NCBI GenBank assembly: GCA_029582155.1 | Contig: CM055895.1 | Span: 22,828,462-22,892,461, forward strand | Direction: 5' to 3' | DNA: 64,000 nt | Origin: Panopea generosa | Taxonomy: Eukaryota; Mollusca; Bivalvia; Adapedonta; Hiatellidae | Part shown: in pieces, positions 1-62,932 of the stretch | Position numbering within the stretch: position 1 is the first letter of the stretch | Layout of the letters: every line of letters starts with the position of its first letter | The notes under the pieces: model-generated | What the model was told of the DNA's origin: nothing | Seen by the model: only the letters and a program-made list of their open reading frames with translations | The model's database searches: none | Program-made: the position numbers and the translations under genes

Positions 1-128
1 GGTGAGAGACAAATGATAATGAGACACAATTTTGTATATTATCATGAAGACTCTTGCCGGGCAGGGATTCCCATTCACGAACCTTGGATTGATAGTCAGA
101 TGCAATACCAACTGAGCTAATTGGGCCC
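1..128 (-). repeat. tRNA-derived SINE, family A (cut by window edge)
   Basis: Family A, as named here: read on the - strand it starts with a tRNA-like head (TAGCTCAGTTGG resembles a Pol III A box), then a B-box-like GTTTGAATCC, a body with 'tctcattntcatttgtctctcacc', and a 3' end with 'gctaaatattcaaacaaac'. Full-length copies are about 280-300 bp. In this copy the head lies at about 60-128 and the rest continues left of the window. The A/B-box head is seen directly; Pol III origin is inferred from it. Confidence 0.7.
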
Positions 129-1330
129 AGCTCAAAGGGAAAGGGATATCAAACAAGGCAACGTTGAAATTGATTTTATTTGTGGTTATAATTCGAATCA
201 ATATTTACCAGTGAATGTATAACTACAGGAGATATTAAACTCAAAATGTTTCTATCTGCATCGTCATATTTAATAAATAAATTGACAATTTTCGTAAAAC
301 TGGTAAATTATGTTACACTTGTAAAAAGAATCTTCAAAGAAAATATATTTTTTTTATATTTTATTAGATTTCTTTTCCAACGTACAAACTGATGAAATTG
401 ATTTCAAAGAATTGTTGGAAATGAAATGCCTTTCAACTATTTACCAGTGTAATTCATGCCCTGTTCCAATATAAGAATGAAATAAGGAATCGGCCAAATT
501 TTATATACTGTACATATCTTACAAGATCTTAATGCATTGTATAAATAGTGTTAAAGGGAATATTTCAGGATTTTTCAAAATTTAAAAATTGGCTAAAAAC
601 ATTTCCCCTAGTATGTGATGACTGTTTATACTCATTGAACACATATTGCTAACAGGATAACTATTTAAACATACCAAAATCATATATGGCTACATGCCTA
701 GGTTAGACTAAAGAGTGTTCCGACTTAAAATTGCAACATATTTTCTGACATATTAAAGAGTCAAGTTAATTTATTATTTGATTTCAAATGAATCTACTAT
801 ACAGGTTTGCACATAAGAAAATATCTTTCATCTTAGAAAGAGTCCGAATGACAATTGGAAGGGAGTCAAGCATTATTTAAATGCTGTCTATTTTTAGAAT
901 AGGGATTTTGTTTCTTGTTTACCACTCAAATTAAAATATAGAGTTTGCCACGTTTTGGTGGATTTGACATACCAGATCATTCAATTTTTAATTATTAATG
1001 ATAATGAGATGACTTTTTAGCCATTTTAATTTTTTTTAAAGACATTTAAAGCTTTTTTAGCTGATATACTGCCTTTAAGTAAGTATATCAAAATTTCTGC
1101 ACAACACTTTAAAAGTAGGAAATGCACTGTAAAGTATGCTGAAACAATTTTACTCTCAAATTTCAATTAAGAAATTAAAAAAATATTATTATATAATTAA
1201 AGCTATTTCATTGCAGTTTAAATCAAGCAAATAATGGGTTAATTGTGGTGTAAGAGCAGCCTGTCCTTGTTTTGTGATGCGGTTGACATTAATTGTTATA
1301 GTTATTGTGTATGTTTCTCCTAAACACAGG
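129..1330. other. AT-rich non-coding stretch
   Basis: I see no gene, RNA gene or clear repeat here. It is presumably intronic to COX11 (inference from the downstream exon). Confidence 0.5.
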
Positions 1331-1334
1331 GTAC

Positions 1335-1705
1335 TCTGTTGCTAAGTGGTCCAAGGCCTTGATGTCTAACCACACTAACTTCTTACCACTGAGATTGTGG
1401 GTAATGAAAGTTAAGCGCATGAAGAATGGGGCTTTAACGCCATTTTCAACACATTTCAGGTTATTTATGGCATATCCAGTTTTACTGGTGGAGTCAGACA
1501 AAGTAGAACCACTGTCCTTCTGTAAGCAACTGGCAAACTTTTTTACATGAAGTTTTTTGATCAAGTGGGACTCGAACCTACGACCTTAGTGGTGAGAGGT
1601 AAGTGATCTTAAGATGGAGGACCCAAGCGCTGGAAGAAGGCTCATTTAATAATTTCATGTGAGAAAATTTGCCAGTCACTTGCAGACTTTAGGATGGTGT
1701 TTCTA
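1335..1705. repeat. SINE family B fragments (mixed orientation)
   Basis: Family B has a Leu/Ser-type tRNA-like head (GGCCGAGTGGTCTAAGGC-like) and a tail ending in 'ggatatgccataaataacctgaaatgtg'-type sequence. Three pieces are seen: a + head fragment at about 1335-1403, a - copy at about 1425-1626 with tail first and head last, and a + body fragment at about 1650-1705. The small open frames on both strands here are SINE sequence. Confidence 0.65.
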
Positions 1706-1910
1706 CTCATATTTTAATCTAGGCAGTAGTGTAGTAGAAAGAATGTTTGCGGCTGATGCCAGAGGTTGTGGGTTCGTCCCCCAGCTTGACCCCGATGCCT
1801 CTCAAATAACAAACTTAGTATTTGATATACTCAGGAAGCAGACTTGAGAGCAGTAAGTAAAAGCGATGAGCTCAAATTATCCGCAATTGAGCTGAAGTAA
1901 ATTAGTATAA
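1706..1910 (+). repeat. SINE family C copy
   Basis: Family C has a tRNA-like head (GTGTAGTAGAAAGAATG ... GAGGTTGTGGGTTCGTCCC, with a clear B box) followed by a body ending in 'gagctcaaattatccgcaattgagctgaa'. Relatives occur at 6,185, 11,565, 35,870, 52,745 and 55,848. Confidence 0.65.
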
Positions 1911-2224
1911 ATTACTCATTTTATTCCACAATTAAAACTGAATATTCAATAAATTTATATAAACTGTTGTAACATTGAAAACTCATTCACACAAATACAA
2001 GCCATGTAAAAATGCATGTTTCTCTCAACATTGTGAATATGAGGATTATAGTGATGAGTCACCCCGACTGTTCATGCTTATAATCTACCAATCATGTATA
2101 AAACATATCATTTATGTGGTCCAAATATCTCATTTTCATTTATATGTCTGGATTCCCCTTATAAAGTCACATAATATCCAAAAAGCATCATTACACTTTC
2201 ATCTAGTTTAAACTTATTTGTTTT

Positions 2225-2425
2225 ATTTCGATTGTGAAACAAGTTCTTACAACTTAGGCAAATTATTCTCGAAGTCTCCCTGGGAAGAACCCGTACATGT
2301 ACTAAGCATATACGGATAAATTTTCTTGCTCAAAAATACAACACAGCTGTGGCGGAGGATCGAACCCACGATCCTGGGTCTGAGGCTCCAACATTAGTCC
2401 TCGCACCCCACACTACACTTTCATC
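2225..2425 (-). repeat. SINE family D copy
   Basis: Family D has a Gly-like tRNA head (CTAGTGGTAGA-type A box, GGTTCGATCCTCCGCCAC-type B box) and a tail with 'tacccaggaagacttcgagnnngatttg'. Here it reads on the - strand, with the B-box-like end at about 2350-2370. Other copies lie at 13,612, 18,080 and 52,545. Confidence 0.65.
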
Positions 2426-2556
2426 TGCCATAAAGTGACTTGTATTGGCTATGTAGCTGATATCATAATTTATGTAAATCAAGTCAAGTTTATAATTATT
2501 TAATTGTTTTCTTGTAATTTCTTTTATCATGATTTAATATTCGGTATTAATCCTTT

Positions 2557-2862
2557 TTAGTTCATGATTGATTGATTGAATATTTAGCGTCATTTTTATA
2601 CCATCAAGGGCTAACAGACAATCAGTTAACCTAACCACTGTTTCCCAGGATCCTGAAAGGTTAACCAATACTCTAGCACACCCCATCTCCGTAACTAACA
2701 GATAACTTTCCTACTTGAATCAGCGGTGAGAAATGAATGATTATAAATGAGACACAATGTCGTATATCAATCATCACTGAGACTGTTTCTTGGTTTGGAT
2801 TCAAACTCATGACCCCTGGATTGATAGTCAGACGCATTACCAACTAAGCTAATTGGGCCCGC
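2557..2862 (-). repeat. SINE family A, near full length
   Basis: The 3' tail (attgaatatttagcgtcat) is at the left and the tRNA-like head ending in 'ccaactaagctaattgggccc' is at the right, so the copy lies on the - strand. It is about 300 bp and one of the best-preserved family A copies. Confidence 0.75.
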
Positions 2863-3345
2863 CTTTTTGTTCATTAATGATCATTGTACTTGTCACTATA
2901 TGGACAGAAATAGATGTGACATTTAAGAACAGCTCCCAAATGAGGCACCTACCTGATAATACCAGTATCAAATTGTGGGTTTGAGCTCAGTTCATTACAC
3001 ATGCGATCATGATTACATGTGAACACCACGCCTCTTTTAAAGGGATATCCAGCAATTTTGATATAATCTCACTTGACACTTGTAACTTCTGAAAAAAATA
3101 TATCCATTTGAAGCAACATGAAATTGAACAACCAGCCCCACAAAGATAATTAAGTTGACCATTAATTGGAAAAGGGCATAATACAGAGTGTGATCAACTA
3201 ATTCTGGTAAATGTTTGAAAATGAATTGTTTTTGTATTTTAGCAGATTTGTGGTCAACAGTTGCATTAAAAGATGTCAAATGTCGAAATATCAGTTTTTA
3301 ATTGTCAATATGATTGAAAATAATTTCCCATGGTTTCAAAATTTT

Positions 3346-3507
3346 GGCCATTATAAATTAATTGCTAGATTATCAGCCAAACTTTTCTTAAGAAAGGAGG
3401 AGGTGGGGGGGAGGATTTTATTTTTTATGAAAATAAAAAATTGTTGGGCGGCATGAAAATTAGGGGGTGGGTGGGGATGATAAACTAGCAATTAATTTAT
3501 TATGGTC
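3346..3507 (+). mobile_element. MITE-like element, copy 1
   Basis: A 162-bp element bounded by terminal inverted repeats of about 28 bp: 'aaattaattgctagattatc' at the left is answered by its reverse complement near 3,480-3,505. The interior holds G-runs and a 'catgaaaattagggggtggg' block. No protein is encoded. A reversed relative lies at 4,491-4,692. Confidence 0.6.
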
Positions 3508-4187
3508 TTATGTCAAAGATTCATTTACTCAATTTATTTCAAACTAATGTGACACACACCACTAGTTTTTTTTAAACAACAACCCTGTTGTTTGTTTCCA
3601 AAATGTAAAGTTTCATAAAGTAATAGTTGAAGATTAACTATATTCCTATTGATATGTATCATATTAGGTGTAAATATATGTGCATAAATGTTAGTAAACT
3701 CAGTTTAAATTAACATTGGATGTGTCCCTTTAAATTTTTCATTTTACACTTTTATCTAGATTATAATGGAGGTGTAATTAGTTTGGCAGTCTAGCCAGCA
3801 TGTTGTTAGAAAAGTGTTATACCATTAGGGTTATATAGAGTTCAAATGTTTGGAAGTAGCATAATTTCTACACAGTATCACAATTACTTAACACCTATTC
3901 TTATGATGTGTGGTGTCCTCATGGAAACCAGATTTGAGTTGTGAAAAACAAACCCAGTGAATGTAAAAATCATCTATGCTATATCTCTTTGTATTTGAAT
4001 AAATAACAGAATAATACAGAATGGCTTAGAACATGCATTCCCATGAGAATGTTAAATCTATGTTGTTAACAGCTTACCAACATAATTTGCTTTCTCTACA
4101 GCCATACAGTATAATAATGAATTCAGTAAAGTCTAGGAATGTACCCATTATTATTTATATGGAGTCTGAGAATCAGATTGTAGAGAA

Positions 4188-4460
4188 ACTTAGTTGTACA
4201 TCTGACCATCAATCCAGGGGTAGTGAGTGTAAATTCCTGTCTGACAACAGACTCTGTGATGATTGATATACATCACTGGGTCTCATTCTCATTTGTCTCT
4301 CACCGTTGATTTAAGTGGGAAAGTTATCAGTTACTTGTGGAGATGGGTATACTGGTCAACCTTCAGGGATTCCAGGAAAGAGTAGGGTAGGTTAACTGAT
4401 CATCTGTTAGCCCTTGATGGCATAAAAATGTCGCTAAATATTCAAACAAACAATCAAACA
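4188..4460 (+). repeat. SINE family A, 5'-truncated
   Basis: It starts at the 'tctgaccatcaatccagggg' part of the tRNA-like head and runs to the tail 'cgctaaatattcaaacaaac'. The first part of the head, with the A box, is missing. Confidence 0.7.
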
Positions 4461-4490
4461 TCTTTCAAGAAAAACAAAAATAAATGTTAA

Positions 4491-4692
4491 GGCCGTAATA
4501 AATTAATTGCTAGATTATCAACCCTGCCTGCCCCCTAATTTTCATACCGCCCCGACCCTTTTTATTTTCATATAAAACAACACATTATTATCAAAAAATT
4601 TAAAAATAAAAAATCAAAAAAAAAATCCTCGCGCTCTTCCCATTTTTAAGAAAAATTTGGATGATAATCTAGCAATTAATTTATAATGGCTC
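4491..4692 (-). mobile_element. MITE-like element, copy 2 (inverted relative to copy 1)
   Basis: A 200-bp relative of the element at 3,346-3,507 with the same inverted ends (aaattaattgctagattatc and its complement at about 4,663-4,690). The internal 'ccccctaattttcataccgc' is the complement of the copy 1 interior, so the two elements face opposite ways. Confidence 0.6.
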
Positions 4693-5491
4693 AATTGATC
4701 ATAATAAAAAGAATGCCAATTTAAATTAGAAAAGATATTCATGCATGCAGCCTTAAATAACCCATGAGGTATTATAACTTGTCAGATTCAATCTAAATCA
4801 GACCAAACATGATTTGAGATCACTTTTAAATGTACACATTGCTGCAGAAGAGTTAAAGTGCATAAACTTTGATTATCAATATAGATTTTGCATGATAATT
4901 TTTAAACATCTTGATGATTTTTAGGCAAAAAGCAAGTTACAGTGCCACTGTGAATTCAACATTTCTAAGTGCGAAAGTGGAGATCTTTTATTAGATCCTT
5001 TGTCAGAAGATTGAAAATTAAACTTGCTTGTTTGTATTTTGTACAGAAATCATGCTCCAGAATGTTTATTTACTATACTGAAAATATTCTGCAAAAAGAA
5101 CACAAAAATTACCTAAAATTACACTTAAATGTTATTTTTATGAATGGGTACAAATGTTGCCACGGTAATGCAGTGAGTCATGCGGAGATTTGATCAAGTT
5201 GAGTTGAATCACAGGTTATCTCGAGTCTGTAGATATCTCAGTTATGTGCTATTAGAGGAATAAGTGGTGTTCCAGATCTAATCATGTGAGCAATTTGACA
5301 CTTTCTGAGCCAATAAACAAATTTTATAGTTTAAAATTTCAGTACATTTTAGCAGAAGTGGTAAAAATGTAATAATGAAGTGGATTTCTGTTATTGTATG
5401 ATGTTTAGTATCGTTTTCAACATTTTTTTAGCAGAAAATCTCCTTAAAATACAGCATTTGGTATTTTAGACATCAAAATGTTCCAGGGGAT

Positions 5492-5520
5492 CCCCCCCCC
5501 CCCCCCCCCACACACACACC
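5492..5520. repeat. poly-C tract with short (CA)n
   Basis: About 19 consecutive C followed by a short CA run. The complementary strand is a G run. Simple-sequence DNA. Confidence 0.8.
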
Positions 5521-5689
5521 AGTGGGAGGTGGTTACATTCTCATACACTCTCTCCTCAGCTCAGGTTGCCTTCCCCTCACCCCTCCCCAATAATTGAAAT
5601 GCTCCTCTGTACATCATGCACTCTAATTGCCAGGTGGGACCTTTAAGACCTGACCATTGGATGCATGAATGTGTACTTGAGACAGTATT

Positions 5690-5960
5690 CTGAGCATGCT
5701 GCCACATGGTATGATACCCCACCCAGTCGCATACTGACACTGGACCAAATAAACCTAGAATTATCCTCTAACTGCTGAGCGCCAAGCTAGGAAGCGTCTA
5801 GTACCAGTATTCAAGTATTTGGTATGATCTGACTGGGATTCACAAAACCCACGACCATTCACATGCAAGACGGATGCTCTACCACTAGACCACTCTGCGT
5901 GGATCTAACCCACGACTTTGTGCATGCTATACCATTAGACCACCGATGTGGTTAATAGTG
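5690..5960 (-). repeat. SINE family E copy
   Basis: A tRNA-like head on the - strand (complement of 'gctctaccactagaccac', about 5,875-5,895) follows a body that includes CATGGTATGATACCCCACC at 5,705-5,725. A second head-like piece 'ataccattagaccaccg' follows at about 5,930, suggesting a nested or duplicated head. A second copy is at 16,047-16,238. Confidence 0.6.
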
Positions 5961-6184
5961 AGGTAGAAACTTACGATTTTGATTTTTAAAGATATTCTTA
6001 GTTATAGAAATTAACTGGTGAGAAATAATTTGCGTATTGAAGTTTTGCAAGCTGAGATATTTACCAACAAATAAAAATTAATTACAAACATGACCATTTC
6101 AAACATCTCTGAAACTGTTCTATTATACTTGATGAAACATTTTATATATTAATGATCAACTGGCCCTGCATGGCCTAGATATTT

Positions 6185-6345
6185 TATATATGAATGTTTA
6201 CTGGTATTGACACTTCCTTGATAAAACCAGTACTGAGTGTTGCTCATGAAAGGCGTTCGGCCAAGTTGGGGATCAAACCTTCAACCTCTGGTGTGAGTGG
6301 CCAATACTCTTCACTGTGCTAACACCCTGCTTCATGAAATATACA
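6185..6345 (-). repeat. SINE family C copy
   Basis: On the - strand; 'gtactgagtgttgctcatg' and a B-box-like 'ggggatcaaaccttcaacct' are followed by the head complement 'cttcactgtgctaacaccct'. Confidence 0.6.
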
Positions 6346-6434
6346 GGGTTTAAATACTGATAACATTACATAGTATTCATTTAAGCAGAATAGCAAGTTA
6401 GCAATTTTTGGGATTAAACATGCAATGTTTTGGT

Positions 6435-8590
6435 ACTTGGCACTAAAATTTTCCAACTTGACACTAAACTTTAGTGACTAAATAATCAAACTGAATGACA
6501 CAACACTTAGGATTTAGTGACTGAACAATCAAAATGAATGACATGACACTAAGGATTTAGTGACTCTACAATCAAACTGAATGACATAACACTAAGGATT
6601 TAGTGACTCTACAATCAAACTGAATGACACAGCACTAAGGATTTAGTGACTCAACAAACAAACTGAATGACATAACACTAACGATTCAGTGACTCAACAA
6701 TCAAAATGAATGACACAACACTTAGGATTTAGTGACTCAGCAATCAAAATGAATGACATGACACTAAGGATTTAGTGACTCAACAATCAAACTGGATGAC
6801 ACAACACTAAGGATTTAATGACTCAACAATCAAAATGAATGACATGACACTAAGGATTTAGTGACTCAACATTCAAACTGAATGACATAACACTTAACAT
6901 TGAGTGACTCTACAATCAAACTGAATGACACAGCACTAAGGATTTAGTTACTCAACAAACAAACTGAATGACATAACACTAACGATTCAGTGACTCAACA
7001 ATCAAAATGAATGACACAACACTTAGGATTTAGTGACTCAGCAATCAAAATGAATGACATGACACTAAGGATTTAGTGACTCAACAATCAAACTGGATGA
7101 CACAACACTAAGGATTTAGTGACTCAACAATCAAAATGAATGACATGACACTAAGGATTTAGTGACTCAACAATCAAAATGAATGACTTGACACTAAGGA
7201 TTTAGTGACTCAACAATCAAACTGGATGACACAACACTAAGGATTTAATGACTCAACAATCAAGCTGAATGACATAACACTAACGATTAAGTGACTCAAC
7301 AAACAAACTGAATGACATAACACTAACGATTCAGTCACTCAACCATTAAAATGAATGACATGACACTAAGGATTTAGTGACTCAGCAATCAAAATGAATG
7401 ACACGACACTAAGGATTTAGTGACTCAACAATTAAACTGGATGACACAACACTAAGGATTTAATGACTCAACAATCAAACTGAATGACATAACACTAAGG
7501 ATTAAGTGACTCAACAAACAAACTGAATGACATAACACTAACAATTCAGTCACTCAACAATTAAAATGAATGACATGACACTAAGGATTTGGTGACTCAG
7601 CAATCAAAATGAATGACACAACACTAAGGATTTAGTGACTCAACAATAAAACTGGATGACACAACACTAAGGATTTAGTAACTCAAAAATCAAACTGAAT
7701 GACATGACACTAAGAATTTAGTGACTCAATTCTCAAACTAAATGACACAGCACCAAGGATTTAGTGACTCAACACTCAAATTGAATGAGATGACACTAAG
7801 GATTTATTGACTCAAAACTTAAACTGAATGATATAACACTAAGGATTTAGTGACTCAACAAACAACTGAATGACATGACACTAAGGATTTAGTGACTCAA
7901 CAATCAAACAGAATGATATAACACTATGAATTTACTGTGACTCAACAAACAACTGAATGACACAACATAAAGGATTTAGTGATGGAACTCTCAAACTGAA
8001 TGACACCACACTAATGATTTAGTGACTCAACACTCAAACTGAATAACACAACATAAGGATTTAGTGATGTAACTCTCAAACTGAAAGACACCACACTTAG
8101 GATTTAGTGACTAAACACTCAAACTCAACAACATGACACTTAATATTTAGTGACTCAACACTCAAACTGAATGAGATCACACTAATGATTTAGTTACTCA
8201 ACACTCAGACTGATTGACATGACACTAAGCATTTAGTGACTCAACACTCAAACTGAATGAGACCACACTAAGGATTTAGTGACTCAACACTCAAACTGAA
8301 TGAGACCACACTAAGGATTTAGTGACTCAACACTCAAACTGAATGACATGACATTAAGCATTTAGTGACTCAACACTCAAACTGAATGACACAACACAAA
8401 AGATTTAGTGGCTCAACAAGTAAACCACACTAAGAATTTAGTGACTCGACACTCAAACTGAATGACACAGCACCAAGGATTAAGTGACTCAAAACTCAAA
8501 CTGAATGAGATGACACTAAGGATTTATTGACTCAATTTTCAAACTGAATGACACAACACTAAGGATGGAGTGACTCAATAACTTGACACT
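6435..8590. repeat. 43-bp satellite, about 50 copies
   Basis: A continuous tandem array of a 43-bp unit containing 'cactaaggatttagtgactc' followed by 'aacaatcaaactgaatgaca'. Copies differ by scattered substitutions and small indels; the right third is more diverged. Most units contain TGACTCA, identical to the AP-1 core motif. No coding capacity. It lies upstream of the COX11 terminal exon, presumably in its last intron. Confidence 0.9.
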
Positions 8591-9119
8591 AGACTTTTAT
8601 TACAACTCAACCATTAACCTGTTTGACTCAATATTTTACTTTTTGACTTAACATGTAACTTTTTCAGTTACTGCTTAAAATCTTTTTTTTCTCAGTACTC
8701 ACCTTTTTGTACTCGACAATCAAAATTTGCAACTCAACCATTATAGAAAACTCCTCATAATCAATATATCTCAACATTAATCATATTTTCTTATTCAATA
8801 TATTGATACTTCATAGAAATATAAGCTTGGCTAATTGTGAATTTTATGCTATGCCAATCATAGGCAAATAAGTTAATCATGGAGAAGTTGGTTTGTGCAT
8901 AAGATTATCAAGCCCTCAAGGGAAATCTCTTCAACCAGTAATTAGCATCCACACATGATTATCTCAATGATAATAACTAGCATGGTTAAAATGTTCCGCT
9001 ATTATGAATATTAATGAACAGATTAATTAGTCAGTACATGTAGAGTATAATACATGTAAGTGTACACACTGGTTCAATTCTACTTAGACTCTGAGTCATG
9101 TTTATAACCATTTATATCC

Positions 9120-9430
9120 ATCATTTGTCCATAAACTTTTGCTTCAAACAACTTCTCTTCTAAAACTGCTTGACAGAGTTTCACCAAATTTTATGTGAAG
9201 CATTCTTACATGCAGCTCTTTCATTTTCTTTTGAAATCATGACCCTTGGGTCAAATTTGGCTTTCCCCAGGCGCTTATCATTTTTTTCTTCAAAATTTCA
9301 AAAATCTTTTCTCGGAAACCTGATGATATATTCTTCCAGGTTTGTTCAAACCAATTGACTCTAGGGTCAAAATTTGCCCCATTCTTGGGACTTGTCAGTT
9401 TAGCATAGGGAAATTATAATATGAAAATCT
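9120..9430. repeat. fragment of a dispersed repeat related to 20.9-23.7 kb
   Basis: Phrases such as 'gcttgacagagtttcaccaa', 'atgacccttgggtcaaattt' and 'gggacttgtcag' recur in the 20.9-23.7 kb repeat. The short frame here is not a gene. Sequence of this style is common in bivalve non-coding DNA (general knowledge). Confidence 0.55.
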
Positions 9431-9699
9431 TCTTCAAGTATCTACCAGCATGGAAGTTATTCATATTTGATATAAATGATCAGATTGTGTTACTATGGGA
9501 AAACAGAAAATGCTCCCATCTATTTAAGGAATTATTTCATTCATCATGATATCTGGAGTATTGTTTAGACATAACAGTTGGGACCTGATTGTTTAAAGTG
9601 ATTTGATTTTGGAAAACAGCTGTAATAAAAACTGATATATTACAAGTTGCAAAATTTATTAGCAACTCGGCAAGACATTTACAATAATTACAGAAATAT

Positions 9700-10935
9700 G
9701 GCAAATGCTCACTGATTTTAGTAGACAACTGTTATATAACTGGTATATCACACTTTAGCGGACAGCTGTTATATACCTGGTATATTACACTTTAGCAGAC
9801 AGCTGTTATATAATTGGTATATTACATAAAGCTCACTGACTTTAGCCGACAACTGTTATATAACTGATATATTACACTTTAGCAGACAGCTGTTATATAC
9901 GTGGTATATTACACCTTAGCAGACAACTTTTATATAACTAGTATATTACACTTCAGCAGACAGCTGTTATATACCTGGTATATTACACTTTAGCAGACAA
10001 CTGTTATATAACTGATATGTTGCACTTTAGCAGACAGCTGTTATATCCCTGGTATATTACATAAAGCTCACTGACTTTAGCAGACAACTGTTATATAACT
10101 GATATATTACACTTTAGCAGACAGCTGTTATATACCTGGTATATTACACCTTAGCAGACAACTGTTATATAACTAGTATATTACACTTTAGCAGACAGCT
10201 GTTATATACCTGGTATATTACACTTTAGCAGACAACTGTATTATAACTGATATGTTACACTTTAGCAGACAGCTGTTATATCCCTGGTATATTACATAAA
10301 GCTCAGTGATTTTAGTAGACAACTGTTATATAACTGATATATTACACTTTAGCAGACAGCTGTTATATAACTGATATATTACACTTTAGCAGACAACTGC
10401 TATATAACTGATATATTACACTTTAGCACACAGCTGTTATATAACTGATATGTTACACTTTAGCAGACAGCTGTTATATCACTGGTATATTACATAAAGC
10501 TCACTGACTTTAGCCGACAACTGCTATATAACTGATATATTACACTTTAGCAGACAGCTGTTATATAACTGATATATTACACTTTGCAGACAGCTGTTAT
10601 ATACCTGGTATATTACACCCTATCAGACAACTGTTATATAACTAGTATATTACACTTTAGCAGACAGCTGTTATATACCTGGTATATTACACTTTAGCAG
10701 ACAACTGTTATATAACTGATATGTTACACTTTAGCAGACAGCTGTTATATCCCTGGTATATTACATAAAGCTCAGTGATTTTAGTAGACAACTGTTATAT
10801 AACTGATATATTACACTTTAGCACACAGCTGTTGTATAACTGATATATTACATAAAGCTGAATGACTTTAGTAGGCAGCTGGTACACAACTGATATATTA
10901 TATAAAGCTCAATGAATTTAGTAGACAGCTGTGAT
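9700..10935. repeat. 37-bp satellite with a longer variant unit, about 30 copies
   Basis: The basic unit is 37 bp (contains 'tttagcagacagctgttata' and 'cctggtatattacac'). At intervals a longer unit of about 50 bp carries an extra 'cataaagctcactgac' segment (about 9,825, 10,055, 10,295, 10,490, 10,765, 10,850), giving a higher-order pattern. Many units contain the palindrome CAGCTG; alternating units carry CAACTG. Confidence 0.88.
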
Positions 10936-11348
10936 GTTACTGAAAGTTTACATGTCTTAATGTGTTATCTTTTGAACATCAAATTAATGTAACAAACAAC
11001 ATGAAAAAACACAACAAAGTAGATTATCCAGTAACATATCGCTGAAACCAGGCAAAGTGATGATAACAAATTAAAAACCTTGAAATTCTTAACAAGCACT
11101 TGTGTTTTAAGTGTTACATCTTGTACCTCTTGACTGATATTGTGCACAGGGACAAAGGCATTTTGTACGTCTGAGTAGGTCGATATTGCTGTGTACAGTG
11201 GAATTATAGACACCTCTCACTCTTGTTTTATTTACTTCACTTCAGCAGACAGCGCATCATCCACATTTCCATCTTGGACTAAATATTATGATGACTTGTC
11301 ATAAATAAGTAGAGCCGGGTACCGCAAGAAAAATGTACTGTAATATAC
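10936..11348. other. no feature seen
   Basis: AT-rich sequence after the satellite. An 82-codon frame on the - strand (11,213-10,965) is not recognised, has no repeat relation and no splice context that persuades me. Confidence 0.4.
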
Positions 11349-11640
11349 CGCATTTTTAGCTCGCTGGGACGAAGTCCAAGGAGAGCTGTTGTCATGACCC
11401 CAGCGTTGTCGTCGGCATCGTCTGTAGACACCCAGGTTAAACTTTTGCGTTTAAGTTTCTGTTATCTATGCAACCCCTCATTGGATATAAATGAAACTTT
11501 GCATGTGTGTTAACCATCATCAATGGAACACACAGAGACAAGAACATACTAAAAGAGCAACAACAAATTGAGCCGGGGATCGAACCCACAACCTCTGCGT
11601 GAGCGGCCATTAATCTATCCAGTACACTACCACCATGCGA
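11349..11640. repeat. dispersed repeat piece plus SINE family C (-)
   Basis: 11,349-11,540 begins 'agctcgctgggacgaagtcc', a repeat start of a kind frequent in bivalve DNA (general knowledge). From about 11,565 a family C SINE head follows on the - strand, with B-box-like 'ggggatcgaacccacaacct' and end 'atctatccagtacactacca'. Confidence 0.55.
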
Positions 11641-12210
11641 TGTATATTATTCAACATCCTTACTACGAAGGTACAAACCAGTTATCTATTATTTCATCTC
11701 CAGCTGCATTCTTCTTATCCTCTTGGTACCTTGAATGCTCAAAGTTATTGTCTAAATGGTGTAGATAAAACTGCCCAGACTTCTTTAATAATGTATCAGG
11801 ATTCTCTAGGGAGAGCTTGTTTCTATTGATTTACTATCATTTTAAAATGAATTTGTAACATAGACATTGGTTATGTTGTCCTGAGGGTTACATGGATCCC
11901 CCTGGGTATTACTGAGTCAGTACTACACAGATATGCTCTCTGATTCTTAATATTGCTTATTGTCAATTAGAAGTCTTTTTACATAATATTTCAATGGTCC
12001 TTTGAGGTATGGCAGGTCTATAATATAGATATCTTCTATGTGAAATGTTTTATTTGTTGTTACATGTTATTCAAGATGGCCACTTTTGACTAAAAATAGA
12101 CCAAAAATCTTAAAAGAATTACTAACATCATCCCCAGACACCGTGAGTGATTGTCCAATGGTACGAAGATGAAAATGTTTTGCTTATGTTGCTTTTGTCA
12201 TCTTTATTCA
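11641..12210. other. no feature seen
   Basis: Small overlapping frames only. 'caagatggccacttttgac' near 12,070 resembles text in the 20.9-23.7 kb repeat, so part may be an old copy of it. Confidence 0.4.
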
Positions 12211-12212
12211 GT

Positions 12213-12410
12213 TTAGAGGTCTTCGGTGGCCAAGCGAGGTCTAAGGCACTAACAACCACTAACCTCTTACCACAGAGGTCGTCGGTTTGAGCCCAGCTTG
12301 TTCCGAAAACCTTTATGTGAGAAAGTTTGCCAATTATTCGCAGGATGGTGGTTCTACTCAGAATCGTGCTTAGGTCTTCCTCCACCTGTAAAACTGGATA
12401 TGCATTATAT
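12213..12410 (+). repeat. SINE family B copy
   Basis: Head 'ggtggccaagcgaggtctaa' and B-box-like 'gtcgtcggtttgagccc', then a body with 'gtgagaaagtttgcc' and 'ggatggtggttctactcaga', ending near 'aaactggatatgc'. Confidence 0.7.
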
Positions 12411-12589
12411 TACCTGTTATGTGATCAAAATGGCGTCTGTGTGGGGGTTTTGCGCCTTTATATCTAACAGTATCTTAGTTATATAATGGCGATTTGTGCA
12501 CTTTAAATCATGATTTCTGGGACCTGTCAGGCATTTAACCCCTACTTAACACATCTTATCCCTGTGATTCACTTCTTCCCCACATTATA

Positions 12590-12665
12590 TTCAGGTGGGA
12601 GATCCATGACCATAAAATAAAATTCATGGATAGTCAGATGGTTTATCAACAGAGCTAGCTGGGCC
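12590..12665 (-). repeat. SINE family A head fragment, diverged
   Basis: 'tggatagtcagatggtttat' followed by 'cagagctagctgggcc' matches the complement of the family A head. Old and truncated. Confidence 0.5.
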
Positions 12666-13067
12666 GTGCATCTTTATTAACTGATTATAAGACCAGGTTA
12701 GGTAAGATGGTCTTTCGAATATTAAAAAAGAATACCCATTGTAGTGAAATAGCGAAATAGGACCCCACCGTGGTGGAATCTGAAGACCACAATGTCATCT
12801 CAGTTATACAAAATTACAAAATAGGCATTTGACATCCAACTGAAAATCTTAAGATTATATGATTTTGTCCCCCTTCAAGTTTACTAATCATAATTCCAAT
12901 TCATGAAGTTAATTTGTTACTATAAATAGAACTAGAGCATTTTGCTAGTTATAGCAGTATAAACAGATATGGATACTATGATGCGAAAAACATGACTCAG
13001 TGTATATCAGGAGCCTTGTAGTATAATCATAGTGCATCTACATTCGATACTTCATAAATTACTTGAC

Positions 13068-13312
13068 CTGGTTAGCTCAGTTGGTAGCAAATCTGACTTT
13101 CAATCCAGGGATCATGAGTTTGAATCCCCACCCTGACAAAAGTCTTTGTGATGCACATTCTTCTTCCACCACTGATTCAAGTGGGAAAGTTATCGGTTAC
13201 TGGCATCGATGGGGTGCTTGAGTATTGATTAACCATTGAAAGAGTTGTTAGGTTAACTCATCGGTTCCTCGATTGCATAAAAATGAGCTAAATATTCAAA
13301 CAAACCAACATA
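13068..13312 (+). repeat. SINE family A, near full length
   Basis: Intact A-box-like 'ggttagctcagttggtag' at about 13,070 and B-box-like 'gagtttgaatcccc' at about 13,108, then the family body and the tail 'agctaaatattcaaacaaac'. Confidence 0.75.
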
Positions 13313-13611
13313 AATCATTTGTAGGGATGATTAATATATATTTATATTGCCTTAGACAATCTCTTAAGCCATTTGTGCTGGAATTGTTACCTAATGTTTC
13401 AGCAGACTGGTTTCTGTGGTCCTAGTTCTCATTTACAAGAATAATTAATGATGTTCTTGAAGGAAATCTCCAGGAACCAGACAAAAAAATTGCTGGTTTG
13501 TGTGAATAGTTAGTAGTACATGGTGTTAATTCTACATTTGAGAAAGGATCAGATGGGTGTCTCTGACATGAATTTATTGCTCTTGTTCAAAAGTTTTTTT
13601 AAGATATTTAT

Positions 13612-13860
13612 TTATGTGGAGCGTTTCATCCAGGGGTAGAGCATTGGACCAAGGATCGTGTGTTCGGTCCTCCACCACGTCTATATGTGGTGTCCTTCAA
13701 CAAGACACTTTATCTGCATATGCTAAGTTGGTACTGTATCTACCCAGGAAGACTTTGAGTGTGATTTGTCAAAGTTGTTAACATTCATTGTACATAGACT
13801 GTGAAAAAATTTCATACATCTTTAAGAAAAATCAAGTTCGAAATCTTCCTTGGTAGAACC
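13612..13860 (+). repeat. SINE family D copy
   Basis: Head 'catccaggggtagagcattg' and B-box-like 'gtgttcggtcctccacc', then 'cacttatctgcatatgct'-like body text and the tail 'tacccaggaagactttgag'. A second, inverted tail piece (cgaaatcttccttggtagaa) closes it. Confidence 0.65.
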
Positions 13861-15300
13861 ATTACTTAGTATATTATATATATTTTAATTGTCTTTCTCA
13901 AGGACATCACACATGACTAACTGCATTAAGTGTCATTGCCCAATGGAGAGAGCAAACCATATAACATTGACTGTAACAGATCAATTTCAGATTAATACTA
14001 ATTTAAAATATTCAACATAATAAATGGAAATTTAGCCTAAGTCACTGCTTATAGCTAAGACGCTATCATTACAAATGGGGTACTGTAACCATTTATTTTC
14101 TGATTAAACGATGCTTTGGTGGTTCTATTTTCTACATTGCCTTTATGAGCCCATTTTCTACCGGTTTAAAACATGATTTCTGCCAGTTTGTGTGTGTTAC
14201 GGGGAGGTGGCTCATCTGAGAACCAGTATCTGCCCCCTGGATCCCTGTTTGTATGCCAATGTTTCTCATATTATTTCTGTGGTATTTACTATTTAAATGC
14301 CGGGATTCCCAGACCACTTATACCACGGAGGTTACAGGACACATTATCACATATGTATTCCCATGTGTCTCTTCACTAATGTTGATATTAACAATTCATG
14401 TACATTATGTTCTGATGGCACTTCCCGGTGGTAAATCCAGGGTGTTCAGTAGATTTTCAGTATGTGGGATTGTGTGTGTGAGGAGTGGTGGGGTGGGGGT
14501 GGGTGGGGGGGGGGTTGGGGTTGGGGGCTCGTGCACTCATGATTTAGAGTGGGCACATACACAATTTTAACACATATTTTGCCCGTTTTAGGGGAAGCGT
14601 ACTCCGGTTCTGAGGCTGAGATACTTAGTTACTTAGTAAATTTACCTTGGTTTGTCAAATTTAAGGGTGTGTGCACTGGGTCTGTATCTGGGTCTGTAAA
14701 TGCTTTCACATCAGCGGATTGTCTTTTCTACTGAACAATATTCATTAACTGCACTTAACTGTATCAATACCTTCCTATTATTGTTACAGTTTATAAATTG
14801 GAATCAGGTATATATTGTTTTAAAATATTATTATATATGTCATTAAGAATTTATTTAATATCTCATTTAAAAAACATTTTGTAAGCTCACCTGAACATTT
14901 AAGGTGAAAGGTGAGTAATTCTGATCATCCTCTCCATGCGTGCGTAAACGCTTAAGCTGTGCGTATTCCAGCACTAGCATTTGCCCAAAACTAGTGTAGC
15001 TCAATACAGACCAAGAATGTAGATAGACTGAGTATTGCTCTGTGTCCCCAAATTTTATATCCATGATATTTTAAGCTGGCTAAATCTTATAATAATTAAA
15101 TGCCTTTTAATTGTCAAAACTTAACCCTATTTGACACTGTGTTCAATGTTGCACATGAATTTTTCATTAAATTTTTTCCAAACTTATTTGAAAAATTTTT
15201 TTTTTTTGAAAAGCCTGATATAATAAATATGTGAGTCGTTGTTTGGTGTTTAGTGTTGCTTTCAACAAATTTTCAGTTATATCACAAAGGTGTCTACTTA
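13861..15300. other. non-coding with a G-rich run; no gene seen
   Basis: Contains a G-rich tract at 14,484-14,530 and, near 14,883, a short piece starting 'taagctcacctgaacattt' that resembles the start of the dispersed repeat at 20.9 kb. The 105- and 61-codon + frames at 14.25-14.73 kb run through the G-rich tract and match nothing I recognise. COX11 upstream exons were looked for here and not found. Confidence 0.45.
14484..14530 (+). other. G-quadruplex-prone tract
   Basis: At least four runs of four or more G separated by one or two bases, including ggggttgggg-type spacing. It meets the usual G4 pattern by eye. Confidence 0.6.
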
Positions 15301-15319
15301 AGACAGATATTAAGTTCTA

Positions 15320-16075
15320 CCACACTGTACAGCAGACACATGGTATGATACCCCACCCTGTAGAAGTTCGGTGCAACAAACATATGGTATGATACCCCAC
15401 CCTGTAGAAGTATCGTGCAGCAGACACATGGTATTATACCCCACCCTGTAGAAGTGTCGTGCAGCAGACACATGGTATTATACCCCACCCTGTAGAAGTA
15501 TCGTGCAGCAGACACATGGTATGATACCCCACCCTGTAGAAGTATCGTGCAGCAGACACATGGTATGATATCCCACCCTGTAGAAGTGTCGTGCAGCAGA
15601 CACATGGTATTATACCCCATCCTGTAGAAGTGTCGTGCAGCAGACACATGGTATGATACCCCACTTTGTAGAAGTATCGTGCAGAAGACACATGGTATGA
15701 TACCCCACCCTGTAGAAGTATCGTACAGCAGACATATGGTATGATACCCTACCCTGTAGAAGTGTCGTACAGCAGACACATGGTATTATACCCCACCCTG
15801 TAGAAGTTCCGTGCAGCAGACACATGGTATGATACCCCACCCTGTAGAAGTATAGTAAAGCAGACACATGGTATGATACCCCACCCTGTAGAAGTATCAT
15901 GCAGCAGACACATGGTATTATACCCCATTCTGTAGAAGTGTCATGCAGCAGACACATGGTATGATACCCCACCCTGTAGAAGTGTCGTGCAGCAGACACA
16001 TGGTATGATACCCCACTTTGTAGAAGTATCGTGCAGAAGACACATGGTATGATACCCCACCCTGACTCACATTAT
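15320..16075. repeat. 44-bp minisatellite, 17 copies
   Basis: The unit is 44 bp (e.g. starts at 15,425 and 15,469), containing CATGGTATGATACCCCACC and 'tgtagaagtatcgtgcagca'. Because 44 is not a multiple of three, three overlapping - strand frames of 85-161 codons arise by chance and are not genes. The array runs directly into the SINE family E copy at 16,047, which carries the same CATGGTATGATACCCCACC text. Confidence 0.9.
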
Positions 16076-16238
16076 TCTGACACAGGGCCAACCTTGAACT
16101 ATCCTCTAAATGCTGAACACCAAGCGAGGAAGCTTCTATTACCATTTTTTATACTCAAGTCTTTAGTATGCCCCAGCTCAGGGATTGTGACTCAATATCT
16201 TCTGCATGCAAGGTAGACACTCTACCACTAGACCACTG
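16047..16238 (-). repeat. SINE family E copy adjoining the 44-bp array
   Basis: It follows the last 44-bp unit without a gap; shared landmarks with the 5,690 copy are 'aactatcctctaaatgctga'-like text, 'ccaagcgaggaagc' and the head complement 'ctctaccactagaccac'. Confidence 0.65.
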
Positions 16239-16289
16239 TTACAGTTTTATTGATGAGTTTTGGTAGTTAATAATTGCAAAAAATTATTG

Positions 16290-17292
16290 TTATATTTCAG
16301 GTTGACATGCCCATGATAAATATTGTAATATTTCAGGTTGACATGCTTCAGTGTTTATTTGGTAATGATAAATATTGTAATATTTCAGGTTGACATGCTT
16401 CAGTGTTTAATTGATAATGATATGTTTTGGTATATTTCAGGTTGACATGCTTCAGTGTTTAATTGGTAATGATATATTTTGGTATATTTCAGGTTGACAT
16501 GCTTCAGTGTTTAATTTGTAATGATATGTTTTGGTATATTTCAGGTTGACATGCTTCAGTGTTTAATTTGTAATGATATGTTTTGGTATATTTCAGGTTG
16601 ACATGCTTCAGTGTTTAATTGGTAATGATATATTTTGGTATATTTCAGGTTGACATGCTTCAGTGTTTAATTGGTAATGATATGTTTTGGTATATTTCAG
16701 GTTGACATGCTTCAGTGTTTAATTGGTAATGATATATGTTATGGTATATTTCAGGTTGACATGCTTCAGTGTTTAATTGGTAATGATATATGTTTTGGTA
16801 TATTTCAGGTTGACATGCTTCAGTGTTTAATTGGTAATGACATATGTTATGGTATATTTCAGGTTGACATGCTTCAGTGTTTAATTGGTAATGATATATG
16901 TTATGGTATATTTCAGGTTGACATGCTTCAGTGTTTAATTGGTAATGATATATGTTATGGTATATTTCAGGTTGACATGCTTCAGTGTTTAATTGGTAAT
17001 GATATATGTTATGGTATATTTCAGGTTGACATGCTTCAGTGTTTAATTGGTAATGATATATGTTATGGTATATTTCAGGTTGACATGCTTCAGTGTTTAA
17101 TTGGTAATGATATATGTTTTGGTATATTTCAGGTTGACATGCTTCAGTGTTTAATTGGTAATGATATATGTTTTGGTATATTTCAGGTTGACATGCTTCA
17201 GTGTTTAATTGGTAATGATATATGTTATGGTATATTTCAGGTTGACATGCTTCAGTGTTTAATTTGTAATGATATGTTTTGGTATATTTCAG
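16290..17292 (+). repeat. 52/54-bp minisatellite made of repeated splice acceptors
   Basis: Each unit contains 'tatatttcag' followed by 'gttgacatgcttcagtgttt' and 'ggtaatgatat'. The GTTGAC following each AG starts at 16301, 16337, then every 52 bp to 16701, every 54 bp to 17241, and finally 17293 after a 52-bp unit. The last is the true start of the COX11 terminal exon. Thus 19 extra copies of intron end plus exon start precede the real one. In the 54-bp units the frame stays open, giving an 18-residue repeat GIFQVDMLQCLIGNDICY; the closing 52-bp unit shifts the frame and creates a stop at 17295-17297. The long + frame at 16,671-17,297 is this array, not a separate gene. Confidence 0.92.
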
Positions 17293-17463
17293 GTTGACAT
17301 GCCCGTGTTTTTCTTTATTGATCCCGAGATTGACGATGACCCCGCCCTGGAGCAGGTCAACAACGTCTTCCTATCCTACACATTTTTCGAGGCCAAAGAG
17401 GGACTAGAGCTACCACTGCCTGGGTTCATTACGGGGCGCAAGACAAGTGTCAATGCAACATGA
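17293..17463 (+). CDS. COX11: COX11 cytochrome c oxidase assembly factor, terminal coding exon
   Basis: COX11 is a mitochondrial inner-membrane protein that delivers copper to the CuB site of cytochrome c oxidase subunit 1. The exon encodes 56 residues and a TGA stop. Visible hallmarks are VDMPVFFFIDPEIDDDP near the start and LSYTFFEAKEG then ELPLPGF, which match the conserved C-terminus of the family (animal COX11 has VDMPVFFYIDPE and LSYTFFEAKEG). The exon begins right after a tatatttcag acceptor, in phase 0, consistent with an intron just before VDMP. About ten extra residues (ITGRKTSVNAT) follow the usual PGF end. The membrane segment and the copper-binding CFCF motif belong to upstream exons, which I do not find; they probably lie left of the window. 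Codon use is GC-richer than the surroundings, as expected for real coding sequence. The acceptor is the last of 20 near-identical copies. Confidence 0.9.
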   Translation, partial: VDMPVFFFIDPEIDDDPALEQVNNVFLSYTFFEAKEGLELPLPGFITGRKTSVNAT

Positions 17464-18079
17464 TTAGAAATTGTGAAAATGAGGGGTTGGAGTGGGGATT
17501 GAGTGTTTATAATCAACTTCTATTTTCCTGAGAAAAATATCAACAATGAACTGTTTTGCTTATTCCTTTAAAGTTTTGTACATCATATTTCACTTAAATT
17601 ACATGCTTTTTTGTTATTAATTATTTGATGTTAAATGTATTTTCATGATTAATTTGAGTATGTACCTATTTTTTCGTGATTGATTTGTCATTTTAATCAT
17701 TCTGTAGTTGGTTGATTCTCGGACAGATAAAATATTGTTAGTTTACCGTGTATATGGTACGGTCAGGTCATGGCTTTATCCTAATTAAACATTTGTTTTA
17801 ATTAGTTTTAAGCATTTGATAAACTCTATAATTGTTATATTCAGGACATGTCAGCTCTTTAATATATAGTTTAACTGTTATTGTCATGACATATGAAGTC
17901 TTTGATAATCTGTATACTTGTTACAGTCGAGACAAATCAAGTTTTTGGTTACCTGTATACAGTCAAACCTGTCTTAAGTAGCAACTAAAGGGAAATAGCA
18001 AAATTGACCCCTTAATGCATGTGGCTGCTTACCGGTAATACTGGTTAATTATAACTAAACTTATGAAAATGATAAATAG

Positions 18080-34527: not shown

Positions 34528-62380
<27,853 letters not shown>

Positions 62381-62932
62381 TTTTAGTATTTCTATTAAAA
62401 ATAATATTTAAACCAACAAAATAATTATCGCAAAAATCTAAAATCCGATAACAAAAAGTGTTTATTAAATAACAAACAAAAAAAAGCTAAAAAATATTGA
62501 TTTCCGATAATGCGCTCACAAAGTCAATGCTATTTAACTCAATCCGTTTTATTTTACACTCGTTTCAAACGCTCCTGTGTCTAGCGCTTACACTACAGAA
62601 GTGACTGCTTCGACATCGGAGTTAGCTAGCTATACTCGGCAAATGAATCACTGATCGCATCCGCGATGATTCGCTTGAGAAACCTTTAGTTGAGGTTTAC
62701 AGTTACACTAAAAGAACTAAAAAAACAGGACTATGACACATGTAGATGCAGAATTTATACAATATGTGTACACTACAATGATAGACACATCATTAAAGTA
62801 GAAGCTGTGGATGGAAATAAACATATTGACAAACACTCATATAACGTTGAATTAACCAAAAAATAAAGAAAAGAAGAAGGTTCTGATTTTCGCGAAGATG
62901 GTTTTGTGTTGTTTTTTTATTTAAGAATACGT
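62381..62932 (-). other. fascin 5' flank or 5' UTR/intron
   Basis: AT-rich sequence immediately upstream of the start codon. A candidate acceptor (AG at 62,393-62,392) precedes the ATG by 11 bases. No clear TATA box on the - strand within this stretch. Confidence 0.35.

Follow-up and report, generated by a model that had tools for sequence, protein, structure and literature searches.

How would a spliceosome settle on one 3′ splice site when 20 similar ones stand in a row before the same exon? The question is raised by the end of the last intron of COX11, a respiratory-assembly gene, in the bivalve Panopea generosa. Within the 64,000-nucleotide stretch of DNA analysed here (hereafter the window), CAGGTTGACATGC occurs 20 times in succession, with exon-start positions running from 16301 to 17293. 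A sequence-only reading of this DNA had described the last 3′ splice site of COX11 as amplified into a 20-site array ahead of the true exon, and the motif count and the spacing agree with that description. We consider the array to be a minisatellite that arose by tandem duplication across the COX11 junction and later grew internally, with the last site being used through exon definition, and we put the probability of this account at about three in four. Both the order of the duplication events and the use of the last site are what we infer from the DNA itself.

Architecture of the acceptor array

The array consists of 19 head-to-tail copies of the intron-4/exon-5 junction of COX11, followed by the true exon. 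The 19 successive steps between exon starts measure 36 bp once, 52 bp seven times, 54 bp ten times and finally 52 bp again, 992 bp in all. The spacing of 52 bp and then 54 bp given earlier holds for the seven, the ten and the closing step, but the initial step of 36 bp had been left out. The positions of all features are collected in Table 1.

Table 1. Features of the COX11 acceptor array and its surroundings in the window
Feature	Window position	Strand	Remarks
3′ part of COX11 intron 4	1..17292	+	46,952 nt in total; donor about 29.7 kb before window position 1; from the exon assembly in upstream DNA
Other minisatellite of the same intron	15330..16064		44 bp × 16.7 copies, 91% match; about 240 bp upstream of the array; unit unrelated
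Intron sequence leading up to the array, with TTATATTTCAG at its end	16231..16300	+	last 19 bases against the end of units 1 and 2: 17 matching
Whole array	16301..17292	+	
Unit 1, 36 bp, beginning GTTGACATGCCCATG	16301..16336	+	of all units the most similar in sequence to the start of the true exon; lacks an internal part of unit 2
Units 2–8, 52 bp each	16337..16700	+	
Units 9–18, 54 bp each (AT insertion)	16701..17240	+	COX11 frame open; 3 distinct sequences among the 10
Unit 19, 52 bp	17241..17292	+	equal to units 5 and 6; source of the true acceptor's branch candidate and pyrimidine tract
True COX11 exon 5 (VDMPVFFFIDPE...NAT*)	17293..17463	+	171 nt including the stop; 50% GC
TGA met in phase 0 from decoy acceptors 9–19	17295..17297	+	
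Repeat of 43 bp × 3.4 copies	17815..17959		about 350 bp past the COX11 stop codon; perhaps 3′ UTR
Fascin (singed), at least four exons	61499..62386, 37432..37602, 35407..35706, 34531..34749	−	tail to tail with COX11

TRF detected the array independently at 16328–17302, with a period of 54, 18.4 copies and 95% match, which excludes chance. The core of the junction is reproduced exactly in every unit, with 19 to 22 nt per unit equal to the true junction; the repeat unit thus holds an authentic splice junction, and the array abuts the true acceptor in register. In the whole 1.47-Gb assembly the 20-mer TATATTTCAGGTTGACATGC across the junction occurs 18 times, every time at the COX11 array and never in the reverse reading, acceptors 2 and 3 being one base off it. 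As many units are near-identical, it might be suspected that their number is an artefact of assembly, or that the array is private to one haplotype. We regard this as very improbable, given that the units form ordered blocks (36, 52, 54 and 52 bp) with unit-specific variants, nine distinct sequences among the 19, in a contig of 100 Mb.

The COX11 gene and the predicted products of decoy use

Searches with the true exon gave PF04442 at E = 1e-9 and, among structures, that of CtaG, 1SO9, at E = 0.0026. Further COX11 exons were not found in the 64-kb window: outside the terminal exon, the lowest E was 0.11 for 111 homologs compared with the window and 0.14 for an approximate human COX11 query. 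The four remaining exons were found within the 80 kb of upstream DNA on the same 100-Mb contig. After trimming of the exon ends to the splice consensus before joining, COX11 comprises five exons separated by introns of 1198, 2515, 1141 and 46,952 nt, all in phase 0, with an uninterrupted frame of 311 residues. Exon 4 has only 42 nt (contig position 22798760, about 29.7 kb to the left of the window), lies between the 1.1-kb and the 47-kb introns and encodes CFCFEEQILNPHEQ, which we take to have a role in the metal site. Its donor, CAG/GTAGAA (here and below a slash marks the splice boundary), is the lowest-scoring among the four COX11 donors.

A search of the whole genome with a COX11 homolog query (E ≤ 1) gave five matches, all of them to these five exons, and therefore one copy of the gene was found. 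Exon 5 keeps the motifs VDMPVFF, IDP and L.YTFF, common to all 22 aligned homologs (chosen from the 111), and deviates at one position, having V where 22 of 22 have I. An isolated exon or a pseudogene was considered and dropped in view of the four upstream exons together with the lack of a second copy in the genome search. Likewise, the possibility raised earlier that the exon belongs to an unexpressed duplicate of COX11 is made unlikely by the single copy found, the intact frame and the retention of nearly all strictly conserved exon 5 residues. The product of this gene is absent among the 111 homologs from the protein search, with no identity above 78%. The intron directly before VDMP seems to be old, judging from the database translations P0101 and P0056, which read as retained introns at that place. 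Rfam gave no match in the window at gathering scores.

When read in the COX11 frame, all 19 decoys end in a premature stop, and the COX11 C-terminus is obtained from acceptor 20 only. In phase 0, acceptors 1–8 and 19 add 18 or 30 residues before a stop, and acceptors 9–18 add 36 to 198 residues before the stop at 17295–17297. The frames as computed bear out what had been read from the letters, namely that the 54-bp block carries an 18-residue repeat in frame until that same stop, shared by decoys 9–19, with loss of the C-terminus. Since COX11 is intact, one copy was found and every decoy truncates the product, the full-length protein would come from the last site only. The early stops fall in the last exon and so should have no downstream junction to trigger nonsense-mediated decay. 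As for the 18-residue repeat peptide, no relative was found among 1931 candidates at E ≤ 1. The open frame of the 54-bp block was also considered as coding, with matches to five Pfam families (including DUF7640 and a cobra-type toxin family), which we take as spurious matches of an 18-residue repeat.

Choice among the 20 acceptors

What, then, separates the true acceptor from the 19 decoys? Acceptors 6, 7 and 20 share a single sequence between −65 and +10, so that nearby intron signals cannot distinguish these three and any difference must lie further out. All 20 acceptors have an AG-free stretch of 32–37 nt and, inside it, between −31 and −33, a branch candidate of the form yUnAy; this candidate is TTAAT at −31 or −33 in 18 of them, and TTGAC and TTTAT at −32 in acceptors 2 and 3. 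Local accessibility was tried as the selector and rejected, since the true acceptor is predicted to be unpaired with a probability of 0.0048, within the range of the decoys (0.0009–0.0456). The differences lie downstream: GC content is 0.29 in the array against 0.50 in the exon, and the first 100 nt contain four purine-rich GAR-type triplets for acceptor 20 against 0, 0, 0 and 1 for acceptors 1, 6, 12 and 19, the four decoys counted.

The last site is the one most likely used, because it alone is followed by a GC-richer coding exon and presumably by polyadenylation signals, whereas the decoys precede an AT-rich repeat. Under exon definition the terminal exon would be recognised as a unit and the spliceosome would take the last, exon-nearest acceptor, leaving the 19 upstream acceptors as decoys that now lie inside the 47-kb intron. 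According to the available text of PMC9225289, long flanking introns lead to a preference for the sites closest across the exon; the minigenes described there tested 5′ sites, and the measurements behind the exon-centric rule concern internal exons, while COX11 exon 5 is terminal. The same text refers to the classical rule of Reed and Maniatis, by which the upstream 3′ site is favoured under intron definition, and which counts against use of the last site. For duplicated β-globin 3′ sites, PMC5389562 describes constructs whose upstream site had an exon of 14, 55 or 205 nt, and in which splicing went only to the distal site and was very inefficient. It also states that duplicated 3′ splice sites can be occupied concurrently and that concurrent occupancy inhibits splicing. 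In the COX11 array, competing occupancy by U2AF and U2 may lower the efficiency of splicing. No test of splice-site choice with 20 sites was seen in these sources. From the reading frames and the published systems taken together we infer that the exon-nearest site alone would be used, and the published exon-centric proximity offers a good general answer to the choice of the last site.

Each junction reads AG/GT and most units have donor-like sites, which makes a self-correcting, or recursive, splicing conceivable: any decoy would be used first, and the inserted repeats would then be spliced out to the last acceptor. The sequence CAG/GTTGAC is present at all 20 sites, yet it scores −3.09, under all four real COX11 donors (0.6 to 6.97), on an approximate vertebrate donor matrix. 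On the same matrix TTG/GTAATG scores −0.15, near the 0.6 of the real exon-4 donor; GGTAATG had been reported for each unit, but it is present in only 14 of the 19. On balance, recursive splicing is a very unlikely way for the last acceptor to be reached.

The decoys might also be more than passive by-products. By hand alignment of units 2–19 (one 2-bp gap), all ten columns with substitutions, like the indel, are confined to positions 22–45, and an invariant run of 30 nt extends through the junction ATATTTCAG/GTTGACATGCTTCAGTGTTTA, with P = 0.0007 under random placement and P = 0.009 without unit 2; an automatic alignment with a misplaced gap gave P = 0.0016. A gap-aware script was applied alike to all arrays, 19 in number, of which nine were tested and ten had too few or too many events. 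It returned a 29-nt quiet run with P = 0.0067 for the COX11 array, as against 0.17–0.70 for the eight others. An ungapped control, in which 16 arrays passed the filter and ten were tested, gave P = 0.0004 for the COX11 array and 0.19–0.69 for the others, and is unreliable because cutting the units without gaps puts the 52-bp units out of register.

One explanation for the quiet half would be that the decoys have a function: selection would have kept them as a bank of acceptors that bind U2AF and U2 and act as a copy-number rheostat, or as a landing platform at the end of the 47-kb intron, thereby setting full-length COX11 mRNA against truncated or unspliced product. Besides the invariant junction and its contrast with the other arrays, the presence of a branch candidate and an AG-free stretch at each of the 20 acceptors speaks for it. 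However, the evidence comes from one locus in one individual with few events and falls off without unit 2, the gap-aware P value is only borderline among nine arrays tested, and mutational bias or conversion among the units could do the same. The gap-aware result slightly lowered our odds for functional decoys, which we consider unlikely, though less so than recursive splicing or an assembly artefact. Conversion from the true exon fails to explain the quiet run, as TTCAGTGTTTA is absent from the exon. Its cause may be selection for working acceptors, conversion between units, local mutability or chance. A purely passive array would not predict the quiet junction half, which counts against our preferred account as an unexplained hint.

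Origin of the array and related systems

How could such an array arise? In the account that we prefer, the founding duplication would have taken a segment over the intron-4/exon-5 junction, with about 20 nt from the end of the intron and at most some 30 nt from the exon, and internal expansion, including the change from 52 to 54 bp, would have come later. Beyond the core the resemblance is weak. When unit 2 was compared with the exon there, 45 random pieces and 85 shuffles, out of 5000 each, scored at least as well; for the intron flank the counts were 49 and 318, again out of 5000 each. On the exon side three units were compared and unit 2 did best, units 5 and 12 not rising above controls; on the intron side it was the best of six, where the others were mostly unremarkable. 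None of four units gave a significant local alignment on the exon side, and on the intron side the alignments of units 5 and 19 were equalled in 65 and 86 of 2000 shuffles, the match being to a stretch further upstream. A first duplication of about 50 bp across the junction is thus likely, not proven.

Unit 1 looks like the exon fragment of that first duplication, carrying a deletion. As had been pointed out from the letters, this leftmost copy is the most similar to the true exon start, with 12 identical bases against 10. The earlier suggestion that the array grew between an old and the current exon boundary calls for refinement; nothing shows that the left boundary ever worked. Unit 19, at 52 bp, has the same sequence as units 5 and 6, and between them all ten 54-bp units stand in a single block, with three different sequences; the block therefore looks like an interior amplification, and the array probably grew from within.

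The surroundings are rich in repeats of this kind. In 144 kb (the window plus the 80 kb upstream), 45 tandem arrays with a period of at least 10 and at least three copies cover 21.5% of the bases. COX11 and fascin together have 14 splice boundaries within these 144 kb, of which one falls inside an array, as counted by eye and with the ends of protein matches standing for the fascin boundaries. In such surroundings an array on one of 14 boundaries is an unsurprising mutation; what is notable is its persistence on the only COX11 copy found. The first fascin intron seen is about 24 kb long, and the closest named match of this fascin (64%) comes from Mya arenaria, a clam. In Sinanodonta the locus tags of COX11 and fascin follow directly on each other; in Mya, Mercenaria and Mactra the two genes are on contigs of equal length, which we take to be one contig, so that the linkage would be shared with four other bivalves. 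Of the two fascins of the snail Babylonia, only the less similar one is on a contig as long as that of COX11.

Several known systems resemble the COX11 array in part. In the human CBS 844ins68 allele a tandem copy of an intron–exon junction creates competing 3′ splice sites, and the distal site at the true exon is strongly preferred, as far as the available text of PMC2630376 goes; that text says "donor", and the title of the work cited there (Romano 2002) says 3′ splice site. The CBS case has two copies of 68 bp at an internal exon, compared with 20 sites at 36–54 bp before a terminal exon that follows a 47-kb intron in COX11. The 37-bp repeats of human F7 intron 7 occur in 5–8 copies. They also form a splice-site array, of which normally only the most upstream, exon-nearest site is used (PMC6627357, in the part accessible), but they are donor sites and fewer in number than the COX11 acceptors. 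The 31-bp VNTR of human CBS (c.1444_1467+7, 16–21 copies by the marker's name; PMC2630376, same text) covers an exon–intron boundary with a similar copy number, on the donor side by its c. numbering.

Duplicated splice signals have given rise to new splicing options in potato, where an intron–exon structure was duplicated, in novel introns of Drosophila and in the 24-bp AGGT repeats of fission yeast (PMC4974935 and PMC2891723, as excerpted). In those cases a new intron was gained, whereas in COX11 an intron that already existed became longer and came to carry many acceptors, with no new exon shown; as regards intron gain by tandem duplication, the COX11 units contain only weak donor-like sites by the approximate vertebrate matrix. 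The COX11 array belongs with the minisatellites derived from splice sites, among which a two-copy acceptor duplication and multi-copy donor arrays were already known. A many-copy minisatellite derived from an acceptor was not seen in the portions consulted of the open-access literature on splice-site repeats, which is a weak negative.

Since the use of any wrong copy would cut the protein short, the locus is a natural test of splice-site choice, a ready-made one both for exon definition and for the effect of many competing U2AF/U2 sites. It also bears on how a presumably essential gene tolerates an expanding repeat on its splice site. Should the less likely idea of functional decoys hold after all, the 19-acceptor array would be a hypermutable splicing rheostat that tunes the output of a single-copy respiratory gene through U2AF/U2 competition. 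On the account that we favour, the locus would show that an intron can lengthen by taking in copies of its own acceptor, here in a stretch of DNA of which one fifth is tandem arrays.
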